From assembly GCF_023276355.1 (NCBI RefSeq), contig NZ_JALLPL010000002.1:62001-126000 (forward strand): a DNA stretch of 64,000 bases. The letters run 5' to 3'. This DNA comes from Haloplanus sp. XH21. GTDB lineage: Archaea > Halobacteriota > Halobacteria > Halobacteriales > Haloferacaceae. Below the pieces are notes generated by a model, which saw only the letters and a list, made by a program, of their open reading frames with translations, did not search any database and was not told the origin of the DNA. Made by a program: the position numbers and the translations under genes. Shown here piece after piece: positions 54,271-64,000 of the stretch (the stretch's first letter is position 1; the number at the start of each line of letters is the position of its first letter).

Positions 54271-54392
54271 GTGAGCGTGTAAACAGGCCACGGCATATCG
54301 ACAGCTTGTAGCCGTGTACCCGCGTAAGTAGCCAAACGTTTATTCACCACGGCTGTTAAATCTAACTGAATATGAGAGGGTTTGACAGCCAC

Positions 54393-55667
54393 ATGTCTCG
54401 GCGGTCATTTGGGAAAATTGCCGTCTCGATTGGGGGGGCTACTGCCTTGGCAGCGTGTACCGAGCGAACCGAGAATGCAGAGGCGCCACCCGGTGGAAGT
54501 TCCGAACCGTGGACACTCCCCAGTCGGCAGCACGCCTGGAACGAATCCTTGAACGGGGGCAACTTGCCGCGTCACCACGTCCTGCTGTTTCTAAACTACA
54601 CCGGCCAACAGCCGACATCTGACGAGCGCGAAACGATCGAAGGAGCTCTCAAGACGCTTGAACGAGCCTATGAATGGAGTAATGACGGACTATTATTCAC
54701 CCTCGGCTACTCACCTGCCTACTTCGACCGGTTTGACGACATAACGTTACCGTCCACGGTTCGGTTACCTGAACCAGAGGCACTCACACCGTTCGAATCA
54801 CCGACGCTCGATCAACAGGATGTGGTTCTCCATTTGGCTAGTGACCGACCGGATGTAGTGCTTCGCGCCGAACAGGCACTATTCGGAGACGTCGAGGAAC
54901 TCAACGGTGTTCAGATGGAAACGAGAATGTCGGATGTCTTCGACCTCGCTGATAGGCGAACAGGGTTCATCGGAGAAGGTCTGCCAGCGGAGAAACAACA
55001 GGATGTGGAGTCGTTATCGGATTCCCCTGTGCCGGATGAAGCCCCTGAATTCATGGGCTTCAAAACGCCGTTTCGGGGCAACCAACCAAGCGAGGACGAC
55101 GTGACGATCCAAGATGGGCCATTCGCGGGGAGCACGACACAACATATCGAGTATCTTGATATCGATCTCGATAGATGGTACAAACAACCACGCGAAAAGC
55201 GGGTTGGATTGATGTTCAGCCCAGAACACGCGTCAGAGGAGCAAGTAGGTGAGATCGGGGAGCAACTGGGAGAATTCAACGGCGTCACAGAAGAGATAGC
55301 TGAGTCGCTTGAGGCGAGCGCCGAAGATGCTGGCTATGTCGGACACGCACAGAAAGCAGCCCGCGGACGTAACGGCGGAACCCCAACCATCCTTCGACGA
55401 GATTTCGACACGATCGACGATGGCAGCGCTGGGCTTCACTTCGTCTCGCTTCAATCGAAAATCTCCGACTACACCTACACTCGAAAGAAGATAGCCGGCG
55501 TGAATCTCGATCACCCATCCGGGAGAGAAATCGATCTGGCAGAGATAGATGGAATCGACACCCGAACCAACAATGGCATCCTCAACTACATCACGACCAT
55601 CCGTCGCGGGAACTTTCTCATTCCGCGGCGCGAACTCCGTGCACTTCCTACCCCCCGTCCGGAGTAG
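54393..55667 (+). CDS. DUF7405 family Tat lipoprotein, Dyp-peroxidase-like
   Basis: 424 residues from ATG 54393 (MSRRSFGKIAVSIGGATALA with lipobox AAC). The body resembles Dyp-type peroxidases: HHVLLFLNYTGQQPTSDERE near the start, RTGFIGEGLP, EFMGFKTPFRGNQ, then GPFAGSTTQHIEYL and a late LHFVSLQSKISDYTYTRKKI. Dyp enzymes bind haem and oxidise substrates with H2O2; whether the haem His and catalytic Asp are kept I cannot tell. A broken relative is at 49511. Confidence 0.75.
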   Translation: MSRRSFGKIAVSIGGATALAACTERTENAEAPPGGSSEPWTLPSRQHAWNESLNGGNLPRHHVLLFLNYTGQQPTSDERETIEGALKTLERAYEWSNDGLLFTLGYSPAYFDRFDDITLPSTVRLPEPEALTPFESPTLDQQDVVLHLASDRPDVVLRAEQALFGDVEELNGVQMETRMSDVFDLADRRTGFIGEGLPAEKQQDVESLSDSPVPDEAPEFMGFKTPFRGNQPSEDDVTIQDGPFAGSTTQHIEYLDIDLDRWYKQPREKRVGLMFSPEHASEEQVGEIGEQLGEFNGVTEEIAESLEASAEDAGYVGHAQKAARGRNGGTPTILRRDFDTIDDGSAGLHFVSLQSKISDYTYTRKKIAGVNLDHPSGREIDLAEIDGIDTRTNNGILNYITTIRRGNFLIPRRELRALPTPRPE

Positions 55668-55724
55668 GGTTCTGCACCGGGAAAACCGAAAAAATGATTT
55701 GGGAGTATAGGTGTTTGGTAATCT

Positions 55725-56258
55725 ATGCCGAAAGGCACAAAGCACTCTTGCAGTCGACGGAGATGCATCACAGCTATCGCAGCACTCGGTCTGTCAGGGT
55801 TGGCAGGCTGTTCCAGTGGCTCTGACGAGTCCACAGCGACGCCGACCGCGACATCGACGGCGACCGATACGCAGACACCCACGGAAACCGCCACGCCCAC
55901 ACCAGAATCCACGGCAACAGGGTCGTATGAGGAGTGGATGTCCGATGTCCCGAACTACGAGGGGATGGCCGACAAAACTGGTCAGAGCGAGGTAGAGGTC
56001 CTCGTCGGCGCGGAAGGCGGTCTCGTTTTCGCACCGCCCGCGGTCGAAATATCGGCCGGGACGAAGGTTACCTGGAAATGGACCGGCAAAGGCGGTTCAC
56101 ATAATGTCGTTCATGACGGTGACGCCTTCGAGAGTGAAATCACCTCAGAGGAAGGACACACGTTCTCGCATACATTCTCAGATCCGGGCCTGTACAAGTA
56201 CTACTGTGTCCCGCATGAGCGGATGGGCATGAAAGGCGTCGTGTCCGTCGTCGAGTAA
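55725..56258 (+). CDS. Halocyanin (type I copper lipoprotein)
   Basis: 177 residues. Lipobox LSGLAGC at residue 29, then a Thr/Pro/Ser-rich linker (TPTETATPTPESTATG) and a plastocyanin-like domain (about 80-177). Copper ligands are visible as His in GSHNVVH, Cys161 and His164 in YYCVPH, and a Met in ERMGM. Halocyanins carry electrons at the outer membrane face. Located 57 bases after the Dyp-like gene and facing the amine oxidase-like gene, all exported. Confidence 0.9.
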   Translation: MPKGTKHSCSRRRCITAIAALGLSGLAGCSSGSDESTATPTATSTATDTQTPTETATPTPESTATGSYEEWMSDVPNYEGMADKTGQSEVEVLVGAEGGLVFAPPAVEISAGTKVTWKWTGKGGSHNVVHDGDAFESEITSEEGHTFSHTFSDPGLYKYYCVPHERMGMKGVVSVVE

Positions 56259-56459: not shown

Positions 56460-58628
56460 TTATTCCTCTTCACTATCACCTCCTCGGCTTTTGAACCACG
56501 CGCCGGCCCCGAGAGCGCCCGCGGCACCGGTGAGTAGTCCCATGCCAGGAGCGTTGGCCTGCGCATTATCCTCGCCGGAGCCACCGCTAGATCCATCACT
56601 GGAACCACCAGAGACCTCATTCTGCGACTGGACGTTTTGCGCGCTGGCGCCCGACCAGTTGTCGACGGTTCCGACGTTCACGTTCACCATGTTGACGAAC
56701 GGAACGCTCCCGGATTCGAAGGGAACGGTTTCGCTGTGAGTCGTCTGGTTCACCCAGACGACCACGCGCTCCCCGTCGACGGATTCGCCGTCCATGTACT
56801 GGGACGGGTGGTAGAACTGCTTCTCTCGATGCCCGTCCTTGACACGAGGTGCGACACCCATCTCGTCCTCGTGATACCGCAACACGTACACTTCGTCCTC
56901 TTGCCTGAGTTCGAAGTCGATGATGTCGTCACCGTTCGGATCCTTCAGGCGCAGCATGTTCGTCCCGTCAGAGAAGAACTCCGACTCCTCGGTGACCTGG
57001 TTCCACTCGCCGTCGAACCAGTGCACCTCCGGCGTCTTCGTTCCACCTGGCGTCGGAATGAAGGACCACATGGACGAGTACGCGGGCATGCCGTGCCCCG
57101 TTTCGTAGCCGGGACCGTTCCGCCGGTAGGTCCCCACCATCTGGCCGTCCTCGAAGAAATGCCAGTCGATGACGTAGTTGTATGGGCCGTACCGGAGACC
57201 GGAGTGGAACTCGGGGACTGAGGTCCCACCCGTGTGGTAGTGGGTGCGCATCTTGAAGCCATTCGGGCGGTCGTTGGGCGCCCAGTCCTTGTCGAGCGGT
57301 GGCAGGTCCGCGATGCCCAGGACACCCGGGCCGGTAAACCCGAGATTGTCGTGGTACATGATGTTCCCATCCTCCCGGGCCCGCGGTTCGACGAAGAAGT
57401 CCTTGCTGTATTGCCCCCGGTCACTGGTGTGTGGGGGATAGGCAGTCAGGGACACCGACAACGCCGCGCGCTCGAAGGCCTGGGTGCCATCGAACTCCAT
57501 GGTGGAGATCATCCCGTCGGTTTCGGAGTCCTTCCACTCGACACTCCAGTTGTTTCGTTTGGCCGGATTCGGCGTCTCGGCTTTGACCTTCGGGCTGTAG
57601 TGTCCATCACCGCGGAAGAGCCATGGAACCTTCTCTGCCGGTGGATCCGGCATCTCATCCACCGACGGATAGCTGTCGTCCACAACGGCGTAATCCTCTG
57701 CCAGCATGTGGGCGGGCTCCGTGACTCGACCTTTCGGCTTGACACCGTACTGGTTCGTCTCGACGTCCTCCGCATCGATCGGATGAATTCCCTGTGCGTA
57801 CACCAGCTCACCAGGCTGTGGGTCGTCCGGCCAATTGTTCACTTCGATGGCTGTGTCGACCACGAGGTAGTCGTGCTCACGCGGCAGGATGAAGATGGGG
57901 AACGTAACCTCTGACTTAGCATACTTCGGCGAGTACGTACTGATGCTCGTCAGTTTCCCGATGCCGACGTACCATTCGTCGGCGTCCCCCAGGAGCTCCT
58001 GGACAGGCTCCTTCTCGAGTGTCGCCTGGAGAACCCGCTTTTCGGCTTCGCCATACCGACGCTTGATCGTGTATCCTTGCGGCTCGGTGATACTGAGGTG
58101 GGTGACACGGTTCTCCCACCCAGGGGAACTCCCGTCGATCGCGCGGTTCGGATCGACGAGAGCCCTGATGTACTGGTTGCCGATGGTCTTGACGGTGTGC
58201 TCTCCCTGTTCGAGCCCCTGCCGACCACCTTCCTCGACGGTGAAGTTTTTACAGCCGTTGAGGCCGAGCGCGTCGTGGTCGACCCAGCTGTCGAACCCGT
58301 CGAAGGTCCCGTACATCTCGCTGATGATGTCGTTGACCTCCGGATGTCGCAGTACTTCGACCATCGTCCGTCGTTTCCGATAGCCGAGTCGCGCTGCATA
58401 CTCTGACTTCGTGAGGTCGAGCGGTGTCGCCTCGGGAGCGAAGTTGGTGTAATTACCGTTGATATGTCCGAGTGTATCGTCCGCATCGATGGCCTCTATC
58501 GAGGACCCTTCCCACTGCTCGTAGGATCCCAGACCCATCATCGCGCCCGCACCGCCTTGGAGATATCGACGCCTGGTTGTCTTCAATTGCTCTATCCCAT
58601 CGTCTTGGGGGTTGCTATTGCTTGCCAT
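56460..58628 (-). CDS. Exported copper amine oxidase-like protein
   Basis: 722 residues with a Tat signal (TTRRRYLQGGAGAMMGLG). The layout and the C-terminal two thirds match the copper amine oxidase fold: LVVDTAIEVNNWPDDPQPGE, MYHDNLGFTGPGVLGIADLP, HYHTGGTSVPEFHSGLRYGP and YNYVIDWHFFEDGQMVGTYR. The last aligns with the topaquinone site (N-Y-D/E-Y in classical enzymes), but here it reads P-Y-N-Y, and the downstream copper His-x-His pair is not visible (GHGMPAYSSMWSF instead). So it may not be a functional amine oxidase. A Ser/Gly-rich stretch and a C-terminal helix (MGLLTGAAGALGAGAWF) may anchor it. Confidence 0.6.
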   Translation of the reverse strand: MASNSNPQDDGIEQLKTTRRRYLQGGAGAMMGLGSYEQWEGSSIEAIDADDTLGHINGNYTNFAPEATPLDLTKSEYAARLGYRKRRTMVEVLRHPEVNDIISEMYGTFDGFDSWVDHDALGLNGCKNFTVEEGGRQGLEQGEHTVKTIGNQYIRALVDPNRAIDGSSPGWENRVTHLSITEPQGYTIKRRYGEAEKRVLQATLEKEPVQELLGDADEWYVGIGKLTSISTYSPKYAKSEVTFPIFILPREHDYLVVDTAIEVNNWPDDPQPGELVYAQGIHPIDAEDVETNQYGVKPKGRVTEPAHMLAEDYAVVDDSYPSVDEMPDPPAEKVPWLFRGDGHYSPKVKAETPNPAKRNNWSVEWKDSETDGMISTMEFDGTQAFERAALSVSLTAYPPHTSDRGQYSKDFFVEPRAREDGNIMYHDNLGFTGPGVLGIADLPPLDKDWAPNDRPNGFKMRTHYHTGGTSVPEFHSGLRYGPYNYVIDWHFFEDGQMVGTYRRNGPGYETGHGMPAYSSMWSFIPTPGGTKTPEVHWFDGEWNQVTEESEFFSDGTNMLRLKDPNGDDIIDFELRQEDEVYVLRYHEDEMGVAPRVKDGHREKQFYHPSQYMDGESVDGERVVVWVNQTTHSETVPFESGSVPFVNMVNVNVGTVDNWSGASAQNVQSQNEVSGGSSDGSSGGSGEDNAQANAPGMGLLTGAAGALGAGAWFKSRGGDSEEE

Positions 58629-58764: not shown

Positions 58765-58788
58765 AATAACAGATGTACTGGTGTTATT
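58765..58788. promoter_or_regulatory. Operator 1 between amine oxidase-like gene and permease
   Basis: AATAAC, 12 bases, GTTATT (followed by C). The 12-base middle contains GTAC at the centre, making the whole 24-base site palindromic. Lies 137 bases upstream of the amine oxidase-like start and 137 bases upstream of the ATG 58925. Confidence 0.7.
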
Positions 58789-58881
58789 CTATTCGGCGGG
58801 CAGAATATTTTTGTGATTCGGAAATACAATTTATCTATTAATACTTTATATTCCTATTTGTTAATTCATAGTCGAATATAG

Positions 58882-58905
58882 AATAACGGCCGTACACCTG
58901 TTATT
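58882..58905. promoter_or_regulatory. Operator 2, upstream of the permease
   Basis: Second copy with identical arms AATAAC and GTTATT, again 12 bases apart with central GTAC, and the same C after it. Ends 20 bases before ATG 58925. Two such sites 117 bases centre to centre fit a dimeric regulator controlling the divergent pair. Confidence 0.7.
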
Positions 58906-58981: not shown

Positions 58982-60349
58982 ATGACCCAAGCTGACCGCG
59001 CGAAAGACGCCGCGGAACTCTCCGGCCGTATTGGCTGGTGGGGCGTCGCCGCTGCGTCGATCGGGTTGGTCGTCGCGTCAACGACGTTTGCGGGGGACTT
59101 CAACGGCTATGGAATAGCCGGCCCGGGGTACTTGCTCACGCTCCTTTTTGGATTGACACTCAACCTCTTTGTCGCCTTTGCGTATGCTGAACTGACGACG
59201 ATATTTTCCGAGACCGGCCAAGTGTTCGACTTCACCAAACGGTGCTTCGCTGACTGGGGCAGTCAACCAGCTACACTGCTGGCGGCAGGAATCGGGACCA
59301 CCTACTGGCTCGTATTCGGTCTCGTCTGGGCATCAGAGACGGTCGCGGGCGCCCACGCGATGGTACAAGCGACGAACCTCGGCACGGTGACCCTGTGGAT
59401 TCTCGTCCTCAACGGGATTGCCATCGGCATCAATATGCTTGGCATCAGATTGACCATCACGATGGTGACGATCCTGGTGCTCTGTATGATCGGGATCCGA
59501 ATGGCGATGGGTGTCGCCGCTTTTTCGGGACTCAATCTGTTAGGTCGGGGAGGCGATTTCGGCGTCTTGTTCGATACCTCTTCCTACCGCCTGTCGGACA
59601 TATTCAAAACCCTACCGCTCGGGATCTGGGCCTTCATCGGACTCGAATTCTCGACACCATTAGTCAAAGAGGTCCGCGACCCATCCACGAATATTCCTCG
59701 TGGGATGATCATCGGCGCATTTACGATTTTAGTGATGGCACTCACGATGGGTGTTGGAATCATTACGACGTTCAATCCGCTGGCCCATCCGTCAGTGTAC
59801 ACTGGCAACGCTCCACAGATCGAAATTGCGGGTGTTCTATTCGGGGCAGAAGGCCGGCTGATTGCGGGTCTCGCGTCGTTTCTAGCGACGATGGGAAGTC
59901 TCCTAATTGCCTATGCTGCTATCCCACGCATTCTCTATGCAATGGCTCGACAAGGGGCCTGGCCGAAGAAGTTCGCATGGCTGCATCCTCGCTTTCTCTC
60001 CCCTTGGCCGGCGACCCTCGCAACGGGCGCGATCATTCTCATTCCGAGTCTCTTCTCAACCGATGTCGTTTCACTCATCAGGCTTGCGGCGGTCGTGTGG
60101 CTTCTCACCTACGTCTGGGTGCTCGTCTTAGCGATCAAATTCCGGTTCAGTCATCCGGATCTCGAGCGGCCGTTCAAGCGTCACATCGGATTCTACGTTC
60201 TTGGAATCCTTCTGATCTTGTTCGTGTTCTGGAAGGCGTACTCGGGCGCATATCATCTGATAGCTATCGGTCTGACTGTGTTCGTTCTAGGGTTCGCGTT
60301 CGCAAAACTGTATCTCGACAACTTCGGAACAGCTCTGTCTAACACGTAG
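58982..60349 (+). CDS. APC superfamily amino acid/amine permease
   Basis: 455 residues from ATG 58982 (MTQADRAKDAAELSGRIGWW); ATG 58925 adds a 19-residue lead and is possible. Twelve to thirteen helices. Typical APC features are GVAAASIGLVVASTTFAGDF in helix 1, AYAELTTIFSETGQVF after helix 2 and WAFIGLEFSTPLVKEVRDPS in helix 6/7. It imports or exchanges an amino acid or amine. Divergent from the amine oxidase-like gene with two shared operators, so regulated together with it. Confidence 0.85.
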   Translation: MTQADRAKDAAELSGRIGWWGVAAASIGLVVASTTFAGDFNGYGIAGPGYLLTLLFGLTLNLFVAFAYAELTTIFSETGQVFDFTKRCFADWGSQPATLLAAGIGTTYWLVFGLVWASETVAGAHAMVQATNLGTVTLWILVLNGIAIGINMLGIRLTITMVTILVLCMIGIRMAMGVAAFSGLNLLGRGGDFGVLFDTSSYRLSDIFKTLPLGIWAFIGLEFSTPLVKEVRDPSTNIPRGMIIGAFTILVMALTMGVGIITTFNPLAHPSVYTGNAPQIEIAGVLFGAEGRLIAGLASFLATMGSLLIAYAAIPRILYAMARQGAWPKKFAWLHPRFLSPWPATLATGAIILIPSLFSTDVVSLIRLAAVVWLLTYVWVLVLAIKFRFSHPDLERPFKRHIGFYVLGILLILFVFWKAYSGAYHLIAIGLTVFVLGFAFAKLYLDNFGTALSNT

Positions 60350-60355
60350 CTCCAG

Positions 60356-60961
60356 TCACACCCCACAGTCGCAACTACCACTTGTGAGTAAGTCGCTAAG
60401 GGGATATTGTGTATCACATTCTTGGCAGTACACCTGGACATCGACGAATACATCGTGTTCACCCAGTGTAATCCGACCTGTCCGACTGAGCCGTTCCAAA
60501 TCATCCTCGGCAACCGCTCGAGTGCGAGATATAAGCCGGTTTATTCGCTCCAGATCAGATTCCACTTGTTCCTCATCGCTCGGTTGTTGATACGTAGTAT
60601 CGCAATAGTCTTGCAAGAAATTATACACAGCTTGATATGTAATGAAATCTGATTCAAGCTCGTCAATCTCCACACCATCCTGTTCAAGTTCGCGCCGCGA
60701 TTGGACCTGAACACCGCTACTCACATCATCATCGGTCAGTACGTGATACAGGTCCTGTATATCACGTTCGTGAGGATTGATATTCGCATCGCGGAGTACC
60801 ACCCGAAGAATACGTCGGTTAAACTCATCAGCGAGTTCACGGAGGCTAGATCGTTCGTCGTCGTCTCTGGTCCACTCAGCCGCCAATTCGTCCTCAATCC
60901 CGTCGAGCGAATATTTCTCAATGAGGCGACCAACCTTATAATCCCGCTTTGACTCACTCAT
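60356..60961 (-). CDS. rdfA: Rod-determining factor RdfA
   Basis: 201 residues. RdfA pattern: YKVGRLIEKYSLDGIEDELA then WTRDDDERSSLRELADEFNR, RRILRVVLRDANIN, LYHVLTDDDVSSGVQVQSRR and ELESDFITYQAVYNFLQDY. C-terminal cysteine cluster (CQECDTQ...CDCG) may bind zinc. RdfA is needed for rod shape in Haloferax. It lies 6 bases after the permease gene (convergent) and 67 bases after the SMC-related gene in the same direction, a conserved pair. Confidence 0.85.
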   Translation of the reverse strand: MSESKRDYKVGRLIEKYSLDGIEDELAAEWTRDDDERSSLRELADEFNRRILRVVLRDANINPHERDIQDLYHVLTDDDVSSGVQVQSRRELEQDGVEIDELESDFITYQAVYNFLQDYCDTTYQQPSDEEQVESDLERINRLISRTRAVAEDDLERLSRTGRITLGEHDVFVDVQVYCQECDTQYPLSDLLTSGSCDCGV

Positions 60962-61028: not shown

Positions 61029-63089
61029 TTAGAAGTTCTTGAGAGATTGCCACGGAGGTGACATATACCGATATTTATCGTTGAGGGAGGCCGCGTCCTC
61101 GGGCAGCAGGGCAACGACGAGGTACTCGGCGTAGTCGGAGAGATACTCGACCACTCGTGCGATCCGATCCGAGTCGATCGCTTCGAGCGAGTCAAGGACG
61201 ATGAAGGGAACCGACTCGTGGACATCGTGGACGAGATACCCTGCAAGTGCGAACACCAAGCCGGTCACTTCCCGTTCACTCTCACTGAGATGGTCAATCG
61301 TGTCTCGGTAGTGACTTCCACCATCGGTCGACCGGACGACATGGATATCGAACGAGGTGTCCGTCGAGACGCTGGATCCCGCTGTCTCGGTATCAATCCG
61401 CTCGATCCAGATCCGCTCGATATTTGAATAGTTCAGAATATCCAGAATCTCAGCCATCCGTTCGTTGAACTCGCTCACGGCGCGCTGTTCTATCTGTTCA
61501 ACCCGCTGGCGCAACTCCGTGAGGCGCTCTCGGAGCTCCTCCCGTTCGGCTTCGAGTTCCTCGCGTTGATCTATTCGACTCTCGACCGCGTCGATTTCTT
61601 CTGTGACATCGTCGATTTCCTCTCGATGCTGTTCAATCTCCAATTCAAGCCGCTTCGCGTCCTCTTGGAGGTCTAAAATGGCAGTGTAATCCGTATTCTC
61701 TTCGATATCTATCTCCTCTCGAAGCGCCTCGATTTCATCAGAGAGTTCATCGATTTCAGTCTCGATAGTCGTCTTCCGGGTTTCGAGTTCTTCGATCCGG
61801 TCGTGCCGTGTCTTGATTTCTTGGGCCAGCTGAGCCTGCTTTTGCTCCAACCGCTCTCGTCGCTCATCTGACTTTTCGAGGGACGACTTGGTGTCCTTTA
61901 ATTCCTGAATTTCACTTTTCACGTCGTTGAGAAGCTCAAGCTGCTCGCTACGGATATCCCGTAGCTCGCCGACCACCTCCTTGATCTGCTTCTTTTTCAC
62001 TTGACTGCCGCACGTCCAGCAGGTGAGTACCTGCTGGTCATCTAGGAGCTGGTCGGTAACGGCCTGCTCCTCTTGTTCGGTCCGTAATGCCCCAAGCAGG
62101 TCCGTATTTGCTTCGGATCTAAATAAACCGAATAATCCACCATCATCCGGCGTCTGCAGATTGCCGAATAATCCTTCTCCATCCTCCAGTTGTTCCTCGT
62201 TGAACTGGATAATATTCTGCATCTGGTTGATCGTCGATTCGAGCATATTCTGGCGTTCACAAGCGTTGCTCAGCCTCGAATTAACGTCCTGAATCCGTTT
62301 GTCGGAGATTTCCGGAAGGTTATCAAGTTCAGCTTCGACCTCGCTCTGCTCCGCTTGGAGCGACTCGAAGCTCTGCCGCTCTGTCTGCAGGTCGAATATG
62401 ATGTCTTCGCGGGTTGATTCTAGCTCTTGTCTCTCATCCAATTTTTCTTCGAGCTCTTCGTTTGAGGTGTCTCGCTGGTAGGACTGGATATCGCTATTGG
62501 CTATTTTCGATCGGATCTCCTCAAGTTCATCTTCTTTCCGTTCAATCTCCTCTTCCAGTGACGAGCGACGCTGAACGAGCCCTGCGAGTTGTTTCTCTTC
62601 CTCGTCAATACTCTGAATTTCGGCTTCGATTTCTTTCTGCTCTCGTTTCAGTTCCTGTATTTCGGCTTTGATTTCATCAATATCGACCGGCGACATGATG
62701 AGATTGCGGAGATCACCCATACGGGCAACTGTCTGCCGTGCCTCATTCGACTCGATCAGAAATGCGAACAGATCAGCCACGTCAGCATCTTCGAGCAGCG
62801 GTTCGCCAGACTTGACCACATCTTGTCCATTGCGGACCAGCCGGCGGGTGTATGTCTCGCCCTCCAGTTCAAGTGTCGTTTCCCCCTCCTCAGCGTCTCC
62901 CTTGAGCGTAACACTTGATCCACCGAGCGCACCAATTACCGCTTGTAACAGCGACGTGCGGTTGGTAGCGTTTCGACCAACAAGGACATTCACTCCGGAA
63001 GAGAATTCGACAGATGCTGAGTCAATTCCTCCAATATTGCGCGCCGAGAGGACTGCGTCCTCTGCCGTCGACCGGGTTTCCTCGTTCAT
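61029..63089 (-). CDS. Archaea-specific SMC-related protein
   Basis: 686 residues. ATPase head: P-loop-like GRNATNRTS (residues 38-46), in which the usual GK(S/T) is Asn-Arg-Thr-Ser. Long coiled-coil from about 120 to 590 with a central zinc hook CWTCGS (about 357-360), an ABC-like signature region SESEREVTGLV and Walker B-like FIVLDSLEAID near the C-terminus. SMC/Rad50-like proteins tether DNA. Together with RdfA this pair is common in haloarchaea and probably works in cell shape or chromosome organisation. Confidence 0.85.
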   Translation of the reverse strand: MNEETRSTAEDAVLSARNIGGIDSASVEFSSGVNVLVGRNATNRTSLLQAVIGALGGSSVTLKGDAEEGETTLELEGETYTRRLVRNGQDVVKSGEPLLEDADVADLFAFLIESNEARQTVARMGDLRNLIMSPVDIDEIKAEIQELKREQKEIEAEIQSIDEEEKQLAGLVQRRSSLEEEIERKEDELEEIRSKIANSDIQSYQRDTSNEELEEKLDERQELESTREDIIFDLQTERQSFESLQAEQSEVEAELDNLPEISDKRIQDVNSRLSNACERQNMLESTINQMQNIIQFNEEQLEDGEGLFGNLQTPDDGGLFGLFRSEANTDLLGALRTEQEEQAVTDQLLDDQQVLTCWTCGSQVKKKQIKEVVGELRDIRSEQLELLNDVKSEIQELKDTKSSLEKSDERRERLEQKQAQLAQEIKTRHDRIEELETRKTTIETEIDELSDEIEALREEIDIEENTDYTAILDLQEDAKRLELEIEQHREEIDDVTEEIDAVESRIDQREELEAEREELRERLTELRQRVEQIEQRAVSEFNERMAEILDILNYSNIERIWIERIDTETAGSSVSTDTSFDIHVVRSTDGGSHYRDTIDHLSESEREVTGLVFALAGYLVHDVHESVPFIVLDSLEAIDSDRIARVVEYLSDYAEYLVVALLPEDAASLNDKYRYMSPPWQSLKNF

Positions 63090-63921
63090 ACTTCCCGCTT
63101 CTTGGTACAGTCATATAATACCACGTTTCGCCCTAGCACGATCCTCCGGCTTCGTCAGAGAGTGTAAGCAGGGAATAGAACAGAGAGCCAAAAGGAGAGA
63201 CATCAATTTCAGCTGTAATAACGTCATTTGATATTTGCCTCCATCAATTCGGGAAGGGTATAAAGTTGAGTCGAGATACTGGCTATAACCGGCATTAACT
63301 ATTCAAACATTACCTGTATATGTGAGTGTACAAAGATAAATATCTACATGGATGGCTATTTCGATTCCACGTCCATGGGAAAAGGATAATCAGTGCGTGA
63401 TAGAAGGGTTCCCTAGCAACGCGCACCGTAAGCCTGGCTACACGCCGTCACAACGGCCCGTGTTGCTCGAGTTTTCTTCACAACCAGGGGGCCCGGATTG
63501 ATACAGCGTGGATCACGACGATGTGGCCATTTAGGGTGTGCAGATACCGACGTATATCCGCGGATCATAATCCGGGCAGCAAGGTATGGTGTGTGATATT
63601 ATATTAACTTTTCGGGTCAAAAATCGAATTGAGGCTCTTGTCGCAAGATAACCACACTATTTGTTGTGAATTGACTTAGAAGGTGGGTTTCTATAAGGTA
63701 ATCACGCGGTTAGATGAGTATATGAGCACTTCCAAAGTTCCTCACTGTTCGTAGTATACGAAAATCTAGACCAGAGATTAGAGGTGAAATCAGTATTGAA
63801 TAACAATCCTATTCTTGTTATATACAGCGGCATTGCATGTTCAATAACCGGTCAGACACCGTAGAATACAGGGATAATCCGGGACAGAGTCAAACCGTGG
63901 TGATAGCGAGAACCAACACAG
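63090..63921. other. 832-base AT-rich gap, candidate replication-origin region
   Basis: No coding sequence on either strand. Several A/T-rich patches (around 63215-63240, 63300-63350, 63600-63680 and 63780-63830) alternate with GC-rich blocks. No classic origin-recognition box was found by eye. It separates the RdfA/SMC pair from a possible Orc1/Cdc6-like start, an arrangement seen at haloarchaeal origins. Confidence 0.3.
63799..63822. promoter_or_regulatory. Third AATAAC-type inverted repeat
   Basis: AATAAC, 12 bases, GTTATA. Arm sequence and 12-base spacing equal the two operators at 58765 and 58882, but the central GTAC is CTAT and the last base differs. Upstream of the possible Orc1-like start by about 100 bases. 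Confidence 0.35.
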
Positions 63922-64000
63922 GTGTTCGATAAATACGAACGGATATTTGAGGATGAGTTGGCTGAAACTTCTGCACTGAACCCATACGTACCATCGAATG
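63922..64000 (+). CDS. Possible start of an Orc1/Cdc6-like protein (cut by window end)
   Basis: GTG 63922 opens VFDKYERIFEDELAETSALN then PYVPSN, running off the window. The pattern (Arg/Lys)IFxDE...YxPxx is like the N-terminus of haloarchaeal Orc1/Cdc6 proteins, but 26 residues are too few for certainty. Confidence 0.3.
   Translation, partial: MFDKYERIFEDELAETSALNPYVPSN

Follow-up and report, generated by a model that had tools for sequence, protein, structure and literature searches.

In Haloferax, RdfA and Sph proteins have come to notice through phenotypes in cell shape (PMC10869688). The RdfA-Sph3(-DdfA) cell-shape locus of Haloferax volcanii described there carries adjacent genes for RdfA and an SMC-like Sph/ASRP protein, as does the locus analysed here, and it has paralogues in many haloarchaea. 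Neither a DNA site nor a DNA-binding role was reported for that locus, whereas the pair studied here sits with genes for amine uptake and oxidation and with palindromes. A survey of ASRPs described neither a DNA site nor a consensus neighbourhood (PMC9389158). CsmR of H. volcanii, whose regulon includes rdfA and sph3, has a semi-palindromic operator, 5′-TATCA-N4-TGATA (PMC13286277); both this operator and the sites described here are palindromic or semi-palindromic, but they differ in sequence and spacing.

Genes for the haloarchaeal IclR regulators XacR, RhcR, GacR and MscR lie beside catabolic clusters (PMC11519228), and the palindrome class reported here adjoins many such genes. In contrast to these cases, the sites of our locus have no IclR gene within 11 kb, and the arm base of the class is independent of the IclR sequence. 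In the open-access literature we found no operator for a haloarchaeal IclR or RdfA protein and none common to the haloarchaeal IclR catabolic regulators; the site class has apparently not been described before. With clusters of copper amine oxidase (CuAO), ammonium transporter (Amt) and amine permease genes, the comparison is partial: a chromosomal paralogue of our locus has a true CuAO, an Amt and an APC permease, whereas our locus has only a remote CuAO relative and no Amt.

The sequence analysed (the window) is a 64,000-nt stretch of Haloplanus sp. XH21. It is part of a 305-kb contig, C2; a further contig, C1, has 2.5 Mb, and all genes considered are haloarchaeal. The features of the locus are as follows.

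58765..58788, no strand: putative operator 1, AATAACAGATGTACTGGTGTTATT, TAAC type, central GTAC
58882..58905, no strand: putative operator 2, AATAACGGCCGTACACCTGTTATT, 117 bp from operator 1
63799..63822, no strand: putative operator 3, AATAACAATCCTATTCTTGTTATA, central TA, with the ASRP gene 710 bp downstream
58844..58850, plus strand: best TATA-like heptamer, CTTTATA, a candidate by consensus match only, between operators 1 and 2
56460..58628, minus strand: 722-aa Tat-signal protein, very distantly copper amine oxidase-like; divergent putative target gene 1
58982..60349, plus strand: APC amino acid/amine permease (PF13520), with the start placed by comparison with the 69%-identical chromosomal paralogue; divergent putative target gene 2
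60356..60961, minus strand: RdfA family protein (PF21811), proposed reader of the palindromes (Tyr109, Tyr113)
61029..63089, minus strand: ASRP/Sph, an archaea-specific SMC-related ATPase with a CxxC zinc hook (NF045487); RdfA partner gene

Operators 1 and 2 lie in the 353-bp gap between the 722-aa protein gene and the permease gene, and the interval between them is 72% A+T. Both match 5′-AATAAC-N4-GTAC-N4-GTTATT without mismatch, including the central GTAC and the trailing C. The original prediction of operator-like sites between divergent genes was supported. The third site, at 63799, is also real, with one mismatch to that pattern, but it is not the weaker site that it was taken for: it is a full member of the class defined below, with a central TA. 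It had also been placed before a possible Orc1-like gene. This gene is merely a broken Orc1/Cdc6-like N-terminal remnant (VFDKYERIFEDELAETSALNPYVPSN..., at 63924-64000 and beyond) that runs into a stop codon after about 30 residues, and the site is better seen as lying 710 bp upstream of the SMC-like gene.

The loose pattern by itself is only mildly unusual for the window. With up to two mismatches allowed, it has three matches where 0.78 are expected, and as many or more turn up in 3 of 100 shuffles. The symmetric form 5′-TWAC-N5-TA-N5-GTWA (W = A or T) occurs three times in the window against 0.02 expected (200 first-order Markov shuffles) and twice in the intergenic region against 0.003 expected, a count reached by none of 5000 shuffles.

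The RdfA and ASRP assignments are well above the respective cut-offs: 238.6 bits for PF21811 (Pfam cut-off 27) and, for the adjoining ASRP gene, 623 bits for NF045487 (cut-off 300). The product of 56460-58628, first described as amine oxidase-like, does show a remote CuAO resemblance, but its match to Pfam Cu_amine_oxid is weak (13.1 bits, E = 0.044) and under the cut-off of 27; it is the cluster of the chromosomal paralogue that encodes a true CuAO. This protein represents an undescribed haloarchaeal family with conserved HYHTG and PYNY motifs. Homologues are present in 14 of 147 genomes, and the palindrome is absent in the relatives examined; a sequence search against the PDB gave nothing useful. 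A DUF7405 Tat protein and a halocyanin-type copper protein are encoded next to it (54372-56258) and are perhaps its electron partners. No named relatives were found for the permease, which has no close relative among the 147 genomes apart from the chromosomal paralogue.

A genome-wide search for the motif had been proposed as a check, and it yielded further copies, at the paralogous amine cluster on the chromosome. With one mismatch, the loose pattern was found at 7 places (reversed control, 0). The refined pattern was found at 9 places (reversed control, 2), namely eight symmetric sites and one stray with unequal arms. RdfA (PF21811) is encoded exactly four times in this genome, each time at a locus that also carries ASRP, and all eight symmetric sites are at these four loci. 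The chromosomal paralogue of the window locus encodes a copper amine oxidase (501 bits), an Amt, an APC permease 69% identical to that of the window, RdfA and ASRP, and has at least three sites of the looser kind. By analogy with it, the likely substrate class of the window locus is an amine. An insertion-sequence transposase lies between its RdfA and ASRP genes (L008:9337-9972). The other two loci are both on C2 and hold the only two IclR genes of the genome, 11.5 kb and about 60 kb from the window sites; here, the sites are between IclR and ASRP. A second ASRP gene of this plasmid (L010:7105-9143, about 7-9 kb to the right of the window) is probably frameshifted, because it is split over two frames.

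These sites belong to a haloarchaea-wide class tied to RdfA-ASRP and IclR loci. The exact form 5′-ATAAC-N4-GTAC-N4-GTTAT is present in 20 of 147 relatives (none with the reversed control); across the order, 78 of 392 genomes have it (one control match). Among 41 listed exact sites, 18 had an IclR_C gene at no more than 1.5 kb (0.30 expected) and 13 had RdfA at no more than 3 kb (0.20 expected). RdfA genes themselves tend to have an IclR gene nearby: 17 of 53 do so within 6 kb, against an expectation of 1.3.

We also took 60 IclR loci from genomes selected because the exact motif was absent. In 35 of these loci, 41 palindromes of the form 5′-TWAC-N12-GTWA were found, while other gap lengths gave 0-6. 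None was within the IclR gene, and the centre was nearly always TA. With these palindromes, the class extends to arms of two types, TAAC and TTAC. A further 80 named ASRP loci were gathered by protein search, with no use of the motif in their selection. They had 73 symmetric sites at a half-gap of 5, as opposed to 0-2 at other half-gaps, and no site with mixed arms. Of the 73, 58 were no more than 450 bp from ASRP or RdfA, in varying positions: some upstream of rdfA, some between the two genes and some downstream of asrp.

The association with IclR genes suggests IclR proteins as the readers. The two plasmid IclR proteins would then act in trans on the window sites, and the RdfA and ASRP genes would be ordinary members of an IclR regulon. 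The class fits the palindrome expected for a dimeric winged helix-turn-helix regulator, with symmetric arms and almost no mixed ones. The promoter of XacR itself reportedly carries a palindromic operator. Catabolic activators are known among haloarchaeal IclR proteins (PMC11519228). Besides the 18 of 41 exact sites close to IclR genes and the gap-12 palindromes that spare the IclR gene itself, all 20 motif-positive genomes carry IclR, as do 118 of the 147 overall. In one genome (G108), which gave no RdfA match, a site adjoins an IclR gene. On a Haloferax plasmid, a galactose-type cluster (galactonate dehydratase, Gfo6, KdgK2 and beta-galactosidase) has a perfect 5′-ATTACA-N10-TGTAAT at 227 bp from its IclR gene. 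The window sites themselves have no adjacent IclR gene, the nearest being 11.5 kb away, although adjacency holds for the class as a whole. RdfA/ASRP loci without a nearby IclR gene have sites as often as the others: a site was present in 25 of 37 ASRP loci with an IclR gene and in 24 of 43 without one (P = 0.36).

The sequence of the arms speaks against this explanation. Mixed-arm sites numbered 0 of 96, 1 of 97 and 0 of 73 in three site sets; because they are almost absent, the reader must discriminate the second arm base. IclR proteins 60-69% identical flank either arm type, and in 7 of 18 IclR groups identical recognition helices stand beside both. No column of the IclR alignment informed on arm type beyond shuffles, and no recognition-helix code was found. 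Since arm type ignores the IclR sequence and follows RdfA, a simple IclR-operator reading, which was our initial conclusion, is weakened, and we regard it as possible but rather doubtful.

Residue 109 of RdfA was His with TTAC in 30 of 30 cases and Tyr with TAAC in 25 of 26, so that 55 of 56 agree, with one exception (locus L338). This near-perfect co-variation includes the window's own clade. Close Haloferax relatives of H. volcanii have an RdfA of the His type. As the RdfA tree has only 3-4 independent switches at this residue, a sign test cannot reach 0.05 and the co-variation is not statistically decisive. When neighbours were compared by protein identity, arm agreement was 0.98 for RdfA proteins at 50-59% identity, 0.48 for IclR at 60-69% and 0.71 for ASRP at 60-69%. 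Residues of ASRP also co-vary with arm type, as expected for linked genes, and sites near RdfA genes may have been inherited together with the gene. That arm type follows RdfA is suggestive, not proof, of RdfA as the reader.

Sites far from RdfA bear on the same question. A rule of one arm type per genome was dropped, as a single genome can have both. Where the known RdfA set of a genome was of the Tyr type only (n = 4), there were TAAC sites and no TTAC site. Of six genomes with both RdfA types, five showed both arm types, including at IclR loci far from RdfA (one-sided P = 0.024).

An AlphaFold2 model of RdfA (pLDDT 93) is largely helical, with a C-terminal Cys cluster and helices at residues 82-94, 99-105 and 109-119. 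Residues 99-119 form a helix-turn-helix-like pair in this prediction. Residue 109 opens the predicted helix 109-119 and residue 113 is its fifth position, which would place both where a recognition helix contacts bases. The stretch aligns in register with the IclR helix-turn-helix, weakly (hhalign probability 15%). Foldseek searches with the full length and a fragment against the PDB and the BFVD viral library gave no significant match and no helix-turn-helix fold, and a profile search against the PDB gave nothing useful.

Among 20 IclR-negative haloarchaeal genomes, 18 also lacked RdfA, which suggests that the two families are gained and lost jointly. The two RdfA loci in such genomes had no site, which, like the G108 site, counts against RdfA as the reader; one of the assemblies is only 56% complete and one of the RdfA matches is weak. 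These siteless loci fit a joint IclR-RdfA system as well as they fit an IclR reader.

The palindromes might instead be parS- or loading-type sites for an SMC-like ASRP complex and serve chromosome or plasmid organisation rather than transcription. They do adjoin SMC-like genes in variable positions. In IclR-rich genomes, however, most sites adjoin catabolic and IclR genes and are not clustered near replication origins; they occur on chromosome and plasmid alike, and RdfA showed no ParB-like fold in the fold search (E ≤ 0.001, PDB and BFVD). We consider this function improbable. Chance A+T-rich inverted repeats, or the ends of mobile elements, can be dismissed as explanations: the region is A+T-rich, but the spacing optimum is sharp, the arms are exactly symmetric, the gene association extends over many genomes, and the window shuffles with their excess of three sites over 0.02, the sites of the own genome and the 80 ASRP loci rule out a chance origin statistically.

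The original prediction also held that the regulator is not encoded next to the sites. This is unproven, as the gene for RdfA (60356-60961), which we argue to be the likelier reader, is 1.45 kb away, and the same plasmid has an IclR gene at a distance of 11.5 kb. We give about an even chance to the palindromes being operators read by an RdfA dimer with ASRP, which would switch the amine oxidase-like gene and the amine permease. The analysis shows the site class, its symmetry, the genes that it adjoins and its co-variation with RdfA; the mechanism, from DNA binding and the sign of control to the effector and the part played by ASRP, is inferred. In it, RdfA encoded nearby would act on a pair of sites that bracket the A+T-rich divergent promoter region, with the dimer binding each palindrome through a putative helix-turn-helix together with its SMC-like partner. 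Control would probably be by repression or by bridging of both sites, as the geometry suits either, with activation as the alternative. The oxidase-like gene and the permease would be switched jointly with nearby IclR-controlled nitrogen catabolism. More tentatively, and a little short of even, RdfA could be a sequence-specific DNA-binding protein that places ASRP on 5′-TWAC-N5-TA-N5-GTWA sites across haloarchaeal genomes; the second base of each arm would depend on whether residue 109 is Tyr or His.

If this is true, the rod-determining RdfA-Sph pairs would regulate catabolic and cell-state genes with SMC assistance, in circuits shared with IclR proteins. Most RdfA/ASRP loci have a precise DNA site beside them, which, with a specificity prediction that involves one residue, makes their function directly testable in a laboratory haloarchaeon. 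The site class would also serve as an operator that can be read from haloarchaeal genomes and that marks catabolic regulons.
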